Shown here piece after piece: positions 57,371 to 62,481 of a DNA stretch of 64,000 bases. The notes under the pieces were generated by a model that was given only the letters and a program-made list of their open reading frames with translations, made no database searches and was not told the DNA's origin. This DNA comes from Idiomarina tyrosinivorans. GTDB taxonomy: Bacteria; Pseudomonadota; Gammaproteobacteria; Enterobacterales; Alteromonadaceae. Position 1 is the stretch's first letter, and every line of letters starts with the position of its first letter. The stretch lies in NCBI RefSeq assembly GCF_003987475.1, contig NZ_PIQH01000003.1, forward strand, positions 124,001 through 188,000, read 5' to 3'. Position numbers and translations under genes: made by a program.

Positions 57371-60259
57371 ATGACCAGTACCACTTTAACGCAACTTGAA
57401 CAGCATGATGAATTTATTGGCCGCCACATTGGGCCAAGCGCCGACGAAACAGCAGAAATGCTAAAAGAGTTAGGCGTGGATTCATTGGAGGCATTAACCG
57501 CAGATACAGTGCCAGGTTCGATTTTACGTGAACCTTTCCTGCAGGTTGGCGAGCCGAAAACCGAAGTGGAAGCATTGGCGCAATTAAAAGCCATTGCCAA
57601 GAAAAACCAAGTATTCACGTCGTACATTGGCATGGGTTATTACGATACCCTGACGCCGCACGTGATTTTGCGTAACGTATTGGAAAACCCAGGCTGGTAT
57701 ACCGCGTATACGCCGTACCAACCAGAGATTGCCCAAGGCCGTTTAGAAGCCTTGCTAAACTTCCAACAAATGACCATGGACCTTACCGGTTTAGACTTAG
57801 CCAGTGCGTCGTTGTTGGATGAAGCCACGGCCGCTGCAGAAGCGATGGCGATGGCAAAACGGGTGAGCAAGAACAAGAAAGCCAATGCCTTCTTTATTGC
57901 CGATAACGTGTACCCACAAACCATCGACGTGGTGAAAACCCGTGCCGAGTATTTTGGTTTTGACATTATCGTTGGCCCAGCGCGTGAAGCCGCTGACCAC
58001 GACGTATTTGGCGCATTGTTGCAGTACCCAGACAAGACTGGTCAGTTGCACAACATCGAGCAATTAATTGGCGAATTAAAAGACAAAAACGCGATTGTTG
58101 CGGTAGCTTCTGATTTAATGAGCTTGGTGATGTTGAAGTCCCCGGGTGAAATGGGCGCCGACATGGTGTTCGGTAACGCTCAGCGCTTTGGTGTACCGAT
58201 GGGCTATGGTGGTCCACACGCCGCGTTCTTCGCTACTCGCGATAAATTCAAACGGTCGTTGCCTGGCCGTATTATAGGTGTATCGAAAGACACCCGCGGC
58301 GAAAACGCTCTGCGGATGGCGATGCAGACCCGTGAGCAACACATCCGCCGCGAAAAAGCCAACTCGAACATCTGTACCGCTCAGGTATTGCTTGCCAACA
58401 TGGCATCGTTCTACGCCGTGTATCACGGTCCACAAGGCTTGAAGCGCATTGCTAACCGCATTCACCGGCTAACCGATATCGTAGCGTTGGGCTTAAAAGA
58501 CAGTGGCGTGACGCTAGAAAACAGCCATTGGTTCGATACCCTGACCTTCAGCGTCGATAACGCCGCAGAAGTGTTGGCACGTGCTAAAGCTGCGCAACTA
58601 AACCTGCGCCAAGATAGCCAAGGCACCTTTGGCATTAGCATGGACGAAGCGAAAACCCGCGCCGATGTAGAAACCTTATTTAACGTAATTTTAGGCGACA
58701 ACCACGGCCTAGACGTGGACGTGCTTGATAGCCGCGTAGCCTCTGGCGATATCGAATCCATTCCGGCAGAGCTGGTGCGTGAATCAGAATTCCTGACTCA
58801 CCCAGTGTTTAACCAGTACCACTCAGAAACTGAGATGCTGCGCTACATCAAAAAGCTGGAAAACAAAGACTTGGCATTGAACCACAGCATGATCTCATTG
58901 GGCTCGTGCACCATGAAGTTGAATGCCACCGCAGAAATGATTCCAGTGACCTGGCCAGAGTTTGCGCAGTTGCACCCATTCTGCCCGAAAGACCAAGCCC
59001 AAGGTTACGCCGAAATGATCGGCAGCCTAGCAGAGTGGCTGATTGATATTACCGGTTACGACAACTTGTCGATGCAGCCAAACTCTGGCGCGCAAGGCGA
59101 GTACGCCGGCTTATTAGCCATTCAGAAATACCACGAAAGCCGGGGCGATTCCCACCGTAACATCTGCTTGATCCCAAGCTCTGCGCACGGTACCAACCCA
59201 GCGTCAGCGCAAATGATGAACATGAAAGTGGTGGTGGTTGATTGCGACAAGAACGGCAACGTTGACATGAACGACCTGAAAGCCAAAGCCGAAGCGGCGG
59301 GCGATAACTTGTCGTGCATCATGGTGACGTACCCGTCGACCCACGGTGTGTACGAAGAAGGCATTAAAGCCATCTGTGATTTAGTCCACGAATACGGCGG
59401 CCAAGTTTACATGGACGGGGCTAACATGAACGCGCAGGTAGGGATTACCTCGCCGGGTTATATTGGCTCGGATGTGTCGCACCTGAACTTGCACAAAACC
59501 TTCTGTATTCCGCACGGCGGCGGCGGTCCAGGTATGGGACCGATTGGTGTGAAGTCGCACTTAGCGCCATTCTTACCCAACCACAGCTTGGTAAAAATCG
59601 ACGATACCGGTGCCGACAATGGCGCAGTATCAGCGGCACCATTCGGTAGTGCGAGCATTTTGCCGATTTCGTGGATGTACATTGCGATGATGGGCGGCCG
59701 CGGACTGCGCGAAGCCTCAGAAACGGCAATTATGAACGCGAACTATGTGGCTAAAAAGCTAAGCGCGCATTATCCGATTCTGTACAAAGGCCGTAACGAC
59801 CGTGTCGCGCACGAATGTATTATTGACTTGCGCCCGTTAAAAGAAGCGGCTGGCATTGCTGAAATTGATGTTGCTAAGCGTTTGCAAGACTACGGTTTCC
59901 ACTCACCGACCATGAGCTTCCCAGTAGCGGGTACGTTGATGGTTGAACCAACTGAGTCGGAATCGAAAGCCGAGCTAGACCGCTTTATTGAAGCGATGGT
60001 GAGCATTAAAGCCGAAGCCGATAAAGTGGCAAATGGCGAATGGCCAGCGGATAACAACCCACTGGTGAATGCACCGCATACCCTAGCGGACATCACAGAC
60101 CCAGAATGGGACCGCCCTTATGACCGTCGTACCGCAACCTACCCAGTTGCCGCGGTAGCCGAAGATAAATTCTGGCCAACCGTGAACCGCATCGACGACG
60201 TATTCGGCGACCGCAACCTAATGTGCTCATGCCCCGCAGTAGACAGCTACCGCGACTAG
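57371..60259 (+). CDS. gcvP: glycine dehydrogenase (decarboxylating) GcvP
   Basis: A 962-residue PLP enzyme that decarboxylates glycine and passes the aminomethyl group to lipoyl-GcvH. The single long chain contains both halves of the P-protein; the PLP lysine is Lys709 in [16 protein letters not shown]. The N-terminal [12 protein letters not shown] block (residues 16-27) is typical of the family. It is 112 bp after gcvH, past an intrinsic terminator. A terminator follows the gene at 60321-60346. Confidence 0.96.
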
Positions 60260-61411: not shown

Positions 61412-61600
61412 TCAATTGCAGGTGACATCGACTAATTGAGATACGGTGAACGTATGGCGTTTATTGCTGGGTAGGGCGATATAATCAGGAGAGAATACTA
61501 AAATATTCTTGCCGCCAGAATAATGTGCTAAGACACCAATCTCTTGGTTGTTAATACTCAGGGCTAGGCCTTCTACGCGCTCGATACGTTTTGCAGTCAT
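61412..61600 (-). pseudogene. truncated HipA-like gene (N-terminal piece only)
   Basis: A 62-residue ORF whose sequence (LALSINNQEIGVLAHYSGGKNILVF, in two blocks from residue 12, and a YIALPSNKRHTFTVSQ part) matches the N-terminal subdomain of HipA kinases. HipA is normally about 400-440 residues, so the kinase core is missing. No continuation was found in any frame of the 200 bp after it, only unrelated remnants. It starts 5 bp after the hipB-like stop, in the normal hipBA order. It cannot be an active kinase, though a short standalone N-subdomain protein cannot be excluded. Confidence 0.65.
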
Positions 61601-61605
61601 AGTGC

Positions 61606-61890
61606 CTAGTCCTCGAGGTGCTTGTGTTTGTTAGCCCAAATATTCTCCGCGTCGACATTCGCTGAACGTGGAGGCGCTGTATCCGTAGCCAATGGGTCGG
61701 AAATAGATAGTTCTAGTCCTAGCCCAGCGAGAATGCGCAATAAAGTCGACACTTTTAAATCTTGGCCAGCTTCAACCCTTTGGTACTGTTGCTGAGACAT
61801 GCCGATAAGCATCCGCATGTCTTTTTGCGATAGATCGCGTTTTTTGCGTTCTCTGACTAATAGCTCACTGAGTTCGTGTAGTGTTTTCAT
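61606..61890 (-). CDS. HipB-like HTH antitoxin
   Basis: A 94-residue protein with a Cro/C1-type helix-turn-helix (about residues 12-66: RKKRDLSQKDMRMLIGMSQQQYQRVEAG in two blocks) followed by a disordered C-terminal tail rich in A, D, P and N. This is the layout of HipB antitoxins and repressors. ATG at 61888-61890. The region just upstream contains four operator-like dyads, the first starting 3 bp before this start codon. Its toxin partner is truncated, so the protein may persist only as a repressor. Confidence 0.75.
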   Translation of the reverse strand: MKTLHELSELLVRERKKRDLSQKDMRMLIGMSQQQYQRVEAGQDLKVSTLLRILAGLGLELSISDPLATDTAPPRSANVDAENIWANKHKHLED

Positions 61891-61892
61891 TG

Positions 61893-62000
61893 AACAACCT
61901 ATCTGTTGTTTTTTGTATACTATACAACTAAAAAATTGTTTTATAAATATTTAACAACATACTTGTTGTTTTATTTATAGAATACAATATTTATGTTGTT
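61893..62000. promoter_or_regulatory. array of four operator-like dyads at 30-bp spacing
   Basis: Dyads of the form AACAAC-6 bp-GTTGTT start at 61893 (perfect), 61923 (TACAAC/ATTGTT), 61953 (perfect) and 61983 (TACAAT/GTTGTT). Each is exactly 30 bp from the next, close to three helical turns. A -10-like TATAGT for hipB lies between sites one and two on the minus strand. A separate perfect 15-bp palindrome centred on 61920 overlaps this -10. Confidence 0.7.
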
Positions 62001-62175: not shown

Positions 62176-62481
62176 GTGGGAAAACTTTTTTCAAGAACAG
62201 TAAAAATCGGCATCTTTTTAAACCTTCCGCCATTACTGATGCTGCTTATGGGCTTCCTTAAGCTAGATATTTTCCCGATCACTTTTACTGCATTGTTGTG
62301 GGCAAGCATCCCACTTCAGTATGTTGGAATGGCGTCATTTTTTACCGAAAGTCAGATAACTTTTAACGAGTGGGGTGTGAGTCAGGCATCGCCTGTGGTT
62401 TGGTTGTCTATTGTATTATTTTGGTTGCTTCTGGCAGCTCTCATTAGCTATATAAGCTTGCTAAGAATACACAGAGACTAG
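62176..62481 (+). CDS. small hypothetical membrane protein
   Basis: A 101-residue protein with three hydrophobic segments (about 8-30, 36-56 and 70-96) and a short basic tail. The GTG start has AGGA about 8 bp upstream. I do not recognise the family. The composition is AT-rich like its surroundings and unlike the conserved genes to the left. It sits alone between the hip region and a decayed fragment, with no close operon partner. Confidence 0.5.
   Translation: MGKLFSRTVKIGIFLNLPPLLMLLMGFLKLDIFPITFTALLWASIPLQYVGMASFFTESQITFNEWGVSQASPVVWLSIVLFWLLLAALISYISLLRIHRD

Follow-up and report, generated by a model that had tools for sequence, protein, structure and literature searches.

In the 64-kb stretch of Idiomarina tyrosinivorans DNA that we analysed (hereafter the window), four dyads at a 30-bp period lie immediately upstream of a gene for a HipB-like repressor. 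The array is real and beyond chance; it accompanies hipB in related loci as well and most probably forms the operator set of that gene. With a probability of roughly 0.88, we predict that the four dyads are operators of the adjacent HipB antitoxin/repressor, which would use them for negative autoregulation of its own operon. Directly observed are the sites at their regular distances, the conservation of such arrays beside hipB in several genera, and the truncation of the neighbouring hipA.

Each of the four dyads (starts 61893, 61923, 61953 and 61983, in an 18-bp frame; Table 1) is a full match to ACAAY-N6-RTTGT. The dyads at 61893 and 61953 are exact copies of AACAAC-N6-GTTGTT, and those at 61923 (TACAAC..ATTGTT) and 61983 (TACAAT..GTTGTT) depart from it at two positions each; the preliminary description, which had placed AACAAC-6-GTTGTT or near copies of it here at a 30-bp period, had the coordinates right. 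When the local 220 bp were resampled under a first-order Markov model (n = 20,000), 81 resamples contained one full site and none contained more than one.

Table 1. Features of the hipB locus, in positions of the window.
Feature	Position	Strand	Remarks
Dyad/operator 1	61893..61910	-	exact AACAAC-N6-GTTGTT; 2 nt from hipB start codon; most of predicted leader
Dyad/operator 2	61923..61940	-	fills spacer between predicted -35 and -10
Dyad/operator 3	61953..61970	-	exact match
Dyad/operator 4	61983..62000	-	2 mismatches to AACAAC-N6-GTTGTT, full match to ACAAY-N6-RTTGT
Predicted -35 element TTTATA	61942..61947	-	linker between dyads 2 and 3; promoter scan
Predicted -10 element TATAGT	61919..61924	-	linker between dyads 1 and 2, with 2 bp shared with dyad 2
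Weak ribosome-binding-site candidate AGG	61898..61900	-	inside dyad 1, 7 nt before ATG; inferred from sequence
hipB-like gene	61606..61890	-	94 aa, XRE/HTH_3 repressor, helix GMSQQQYQR, C-terminal W..LED motif; profile, alignment, Foldseek
hipA remnant	61412..61600	-	open frame of 62 codons; homology to HipA over codons 1-58, unrelated sequence from there to the stop

The identification of the adjacent gene as hipB-like, proposed in the same description, is borne out by an HTH_3 score of 35.7 bits (cut-off 23) and by a Foldseek search with the AlphaFold model of the protein, in which the HipB structures of Shewanella oneidensis and Legionella came first and E. coli HipB soon after. The mean pLDDT of that model is 77, with residues 71-94 mostly below 60. 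The best NCBIfam matches are HipB-like models, all of them below cut-off (TIGR03070 couple_hipB, 31.4 against 71.65; NF007271/PRK09726 HipB, 16.2 against 79), and the protein stands outside these curated subfamilies. In an alignment of 23 rows, made up of the window protein and 22 of its 31 relatives, every sequence has GMSQQQYQR (G30-R38) and W85, and LED is nearly invariant; a second alignment of the family leaves out L037. The C-terminal tryptophan of the HipB family is thus present as W85, followed by nine residues, whereas W88 of E. coli HipB is its last residue.

Conservation of the array was assessed in 31 related hipB loci (L009-L039), drawn from genera that include Idiomarina, Pseudidiomarina, Colwellia, Bowmanella, Paraglaciecola, Endozoicomonas, Zobellella, Rahnella, Hafnia and Ewingella. 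Sites were called when at least 8 of the 10 positions matched, so that the ten core columns of the resulting logo are conserved by the selection of sites while flanks and spacing are not. Two or more sites 29-31 bp apart occur upstream of hipB in 29 of the 31 loci, the two loci without sites being L037, where the match lacks its N-terminus, and L039, an outlier whose protein is 39% identical and carries another recognition helix. Within the 200-bp upstream regions of the window and these loci, 78 of 81 adjacent spacings measure 29-31 bp (9 of 29 bp, 50 of 30 and 19 of 31, with one each of 25, 65 and 104), against a mean of 0.14 and a maximum of 3 such spacings in 300 Markov-resampled control sets. 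Both counts cover only the window and L009-L039. Array size is 2-6 sites in 34 of 36 loci and none in two, a count that includes L054-L057, themselves found by the array scan, and is therefore biased towards arrays. Loci identical over 142 bp were counted once (L087/L013, L088/L014, L089/L015 and L092/L020), and L041-L043 were likewise not counted beside L010, L016 and L017. Linker positions carry little information except for A/T-rich flanks, which played no part in the selection of sites.

The placement of the sites is conserved as well: of the nearest relatives, L009-L019, most have dyad 1 at -19 to -22. Homology detected by blastn between the window and L009-L011 begins at 61929, which leaves dyads 3 and 4 outside it; the period thus persists beyond the alignable sequence. 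In other congeners the array is reduced, with a single site left in register in L090 and L091 and none in L086.

Whole genomes were also scanned blind, without reference to hipB. Of 295 genomes of the order, 11 contain the two-site pattern at 30 bp with up to one mismatch, and 7 of these have the match upstream of a hipB homologue (the window's own genome, G000, together with G023, G098, G123, G163, G209 and G126, the last with a HipB 33% identical and a cut hipA). The other four are G211, with an array outside long frames and without hipB, and G198, G299 and G338. In these last three the single-mismatch matches fall inside frames of 645, 606 and 259 codons, neither hipB nor hipA is matched convincingly, and the pattern looks like chance. 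The exact pattern at 29-31 bp matched in 6 of 295 genomes, five times at hipB and once in G211; such exact scans overlook real arrays with one mismatch, for example that of G023. At the level of the class, an exact scan matched in 2 of 369 genomes (the own genome and G613), both at hipB, with no control match among its rows.

The array of G211 (L060, 1501-1546) consists of two perfect operators 30 bp apart and lies outside any 100-codon frame. An ATG follows 3 nt after its inner site, an arrangement that the hipB loci share. There is no adjacent hipB, HipB finds only a weak best match in the whole genome (E = 0.001), and this array was probably left behind after the loss of hipB and hipA. The preliminary description had named wide scattering of the repeat away from HipB genes as evidence against its reading: most arrays found blind do stand at hipB, and G211 and the three matches in long frames are the exceptions.

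With up to one mismatch, a reversed-pattern control likewise matched in 11 of the 295 genomes, which means that the count by itself does not exceed control; the exact control matched in 14 of 295, all of one genus (f27/g92). Because the control matches as many genomes or more, the argument rests on adjacency to hipB and on conservation of the locus rather than on counts. In the 14 genomes of genus g92, TGTTR-N6-YAACA occurs twice, exactly, 13-15 bp apart, and may represent a separate conserved element.

The arrangement of the dyads around the start of hipB suggests how they might act. In a promoter scan, the predicted promoter scores 9 of 12 with a 17-bp spacer, and the region holds two such matches against a shuffle mean of 1.1; this prediction alone, a consensus match in AT-rich DNA, is thus weak evidence. 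A -10 element 33-37 nt before the ATG, as in the window, is among the two best candidates in 8 of 12 loci (L009-L020) and not in the other four. An association of the first dyad with the ribosome binding site had been proposed and stands, although "touches", the word then used, does not describe it, the AGG candidate lying wholly inside dyad 1. HipB binding to the dyads, the position of the promoter and repression are what we infer. With SQQQYQR as the recognition helix, one HipB dimer would contact each ACAAY-N6-RTTGT dyad, and the dimers, stacked every 30 bp, would cover the hipB(A) promoter as well as the leader and ribosome binding site. HipB on dyads 1-3 would then block the polymerase and perhaps the start of translation, dyad 1 lying at the start point, predicted near 61911-61912, and in the leader, and the outcome would be repression of its own operon (negative autoregulation). 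Where the locus is intact, this array would be bound by HipB in complex with HipA.

The 30-bp period had been taken to place repressor dimers on one face of the helix, which holds roughly and not exactly. At 10.5 bp per turn, 30 bp make 2.86 turns, which offsets successive dimers by about -51 degrees; averaged over the window and its 31 relatives, the spacing is 30.13 bp and the step -47 degrees. A row of dimers that slowly twists, or DNA that HipB bends or over-winds, fits this offset of about 50 degrees better than exactly one face. E. coli HipB is described as bending DNA by 70 degrees in PMC3920265. Cooperative binding at the window array is plausible by analogy with E. coli HipB, for which it is described in PMC3376134.

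The recognition helix offers a candidate explanation for the half-site. Matched against known proteins, the profile of the 23 HipBs gives E-values of 1.6e-5 for E. coli HipB, 4.3e-5 for phage 434 Cro and about 0.009 for 434 repressor, and it has the QQ of its recognition helix in common with 434 Cro. The 434 proteins read ACAA through these glutamines, and 434 operators carry ACAA...TTGT half-sites 6 bp apart in a three-site switch. The conserved helix of the family thus resembles that of 434 Cro and would fit the ACAA half-site; within passages of the literature on 434 contacts, a statement on ACAA was not found. The ACAA-TTGT gap is 8 bp here against 6 in 434, and a long regular array stands here against the three-site switch. 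Some variation of the protein is found together with arrays: the HipBs of L054-L057 have K instead of S32 and no LED tail, and that of L059, with helix KQQQISR, is more divergent still, yet arrays are present in all of these.

The truncation of hipA reported earlier is real. Over its first 58 codons the remnant aligns with the N-terminal part of a HipA of 420 aa from Pseudidiomarina relatives, and homology ends there; hipB stands directly upstream of hipA in the family, and the window keeps only this beginning of it. The array has indeed persisted, as had also been remarked, with its four sites and the 94-aa frame intact. HipA queries on 40 sequences found a near-complete match after hipB in 27, four of them cut by the end of the locus. 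No hipA, or a fragment, was found at hipB in 10 of the 40 (the window, L015, L021, L022, L030, L037, L038, L055, L059 and L060); L015 has only a weak 26% HipA match, elsewhere than at hipB, hipB is broken in L022, and L060 has neither gene. The other three sequences are L039, with a distant HipA match (22%), L036, cut by the contig end, and L086, whose hipA is in two overlapping pieces in different frames. Since the search for loci was seeded from hipB, loss of hipB with hipA retained is invisible to these counts.

Several further features of the neighbourhood were observed. In L059 (genome G126, 845-1389), where the divergent HipB goes with a similar operator pair, hipA is cut at about codon 66, near the cut point in the window. 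A frame that we take to be prfC (release factor 3) follows hipBA, 1.7-1.9 kb past the hipB start, in L026, L027, L028, L031 and L033 (and L023), and this neighbourhood recurs in Rahnella, Hafnia, Ewingella and one MAG. The gene gcvP adjoins hipB both in Pseudidiomarina donghaiensis (L011, 2-1420 and 3001) and in the window (57371-60259), with hipB in opposite orientations. About 4.5 kb downstream of gcvP in six other genomes of the window's genus contained neither hipB nor any other window gene tested.

Loss of the toxin first is the ordinary account of a hipB and array that survive the loss of hipA. If the window locus is such a decaying remnant, both gene and array would be passive leftovers of hipBA, the array having worked in the ancestor and now only holding a useless HipB low. 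We give this account somewhat less than even odds, and it is compatible with the dyads being HipB operators. Beside the cut hipA of the window, it is favoured by the missing, cut or frameshifted hipA of L015, L021, L030, L055, L059 and L086, by the broken hipB of L022 and the loss of both genes in L060, and by the absence of this hipB from 11 of 18 other genomes of the genus. The intact state of all four sites and of the reading frame argues against it, as does a pN/pS of 0.15-0.20 for the window hipB against L009-L011, close to the 0.15-0.17 among those hipA-bearing loci, although pS is saturated in these comparisons, which makes them uninformative about selection since hipA was lost.

The preliminary description had suggested instead that, with hipA truncated, HipB may control other genes, and an intact HipB with a perfect array and no intact hipA at the locus is what retention as a stand-alone regulator would leave. 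Such persistence alone is no argument for new targets, as hipB and array without intact hipA recur in other loci, and the search of the 2.43-Mb genome speaks against the suggestion. WACAAY-N6-RTTGTT occurs in eight places, four of which are the array; the other four, single sites all within frames of at least 100 codons, give 5 strand hits against 8 for the reversed control. Allowing up to three mismatches, the two-site 30-bp pattern is exact only at the array and has three other places, with three mismatches each, against two control places. A HipB regulon was accordingly rejected as a candidate, neither single sites nor relaxed two-site patterns in the genome being above control. The genome carries three other HipA_C genes, and about 1.5 kb on each side of them holds no exact ACAAY-N6-RTTGT. 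We regard control of other genes by HipB as very improbable. Upstream of a paralogous HipB (C12) there is no ACAAY array, nor a clear dyad array by a simple 5-mer inverted-repeat scan; CTTCATTT occurs twice there, 28 bp apart (L044), and is perhaps part of that protein's own operator series.

We give hardly any credence to assigning the array to the divergent gene at 62176-62481 (+), or to reading it as bent DNA or a generic repeat in place of a HipB operator. The 101-aa frame of that gene does start 175 bp beyond the array, but tblastn with its product found no match in seven hipB loci (L009-L011 and L086-L089, with flanks of 1.5-3 kb) that carry arrays or partial arrays all the same, and the dyad holds its position relative to hipB.

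With the dyads read as operators of the adjacent HipB, the locus is a variant of a known multi-operator hipB design, with another half-site, a near-constant 30-bp period, a variable number of sites and a wide range. The hipBA operators O1-O4 of E. coli K-12 are alike in that four dyads lie upstream of hipB and a HipB dimer of XRE fold binds them cooperatively in autoregulation, as described in PMC3376134 and PMC3920265. The E. coli sites differ in sequence (TATCC-N8-GGATA, against ACAAY-N6-RTTGT in the window) and are unevenly spaced at 28/39/28 bp as measured in this analysis, and the helix of E. coli HipB reads KQATISNF where the window family has SQQQYQRV. Legionella hipBST has even operators O1-O3 upstream of HipB, surveyed in 28 species and bound in gel shifts, but these are three 18-nt sites of another sequence with 53-bp gaps in a tripartite system with HipS and HipT (PMC10653801). 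The relatives studied here have, in place of separate hipS and hipT, one hipA frame of about 420 aa, of which the window frame is the N-terminus. The Caulobacter hipBA1 and hipBA2 promoters carry series of inverted repeats, and PMC7029023 describes their intervals as compatible with the higher-order complex of E. coli. The best PDB match to the window HipB in sequence and fold, the HipB-operator complex of S. oneidensis (4pu3/4pu4), has the helix TKKTLIRV against SQQQYQRV. The main text of a Hip kinase phylogeny paper, as far as it was accessible, does not contain the term "inverted repeat" (PMC8262856), and the ACAAY-N6-RTTGT motif is unnamed in the titles and abstract openings covered, from which we do not claim its absence from print.

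A more far-reaching interpretation, which we consider unlikely on present grounds, is that a HipB lineage spanning several gammaproteobacterial orders uses arrays of 2-6 dyads, at a nearly strict 30 +/- 1 bp, as scaffolds on which repressors form a twisted filament. The length of an array would then set how many HipB2(HipA2) units are stored inactive, operator number would tune the threshold of dormancy, and loci without hipA would show the part of the register that HipB alone maintains. Multi-operator hipB promoters have been described for a few models, and the family reported here adds some 30 natural arrays, at loci with and without HipA. This set allows the role of the higher-order HipB(A)-promoter complex to be tested, be it cooperativity, toxin storage or dosage control.
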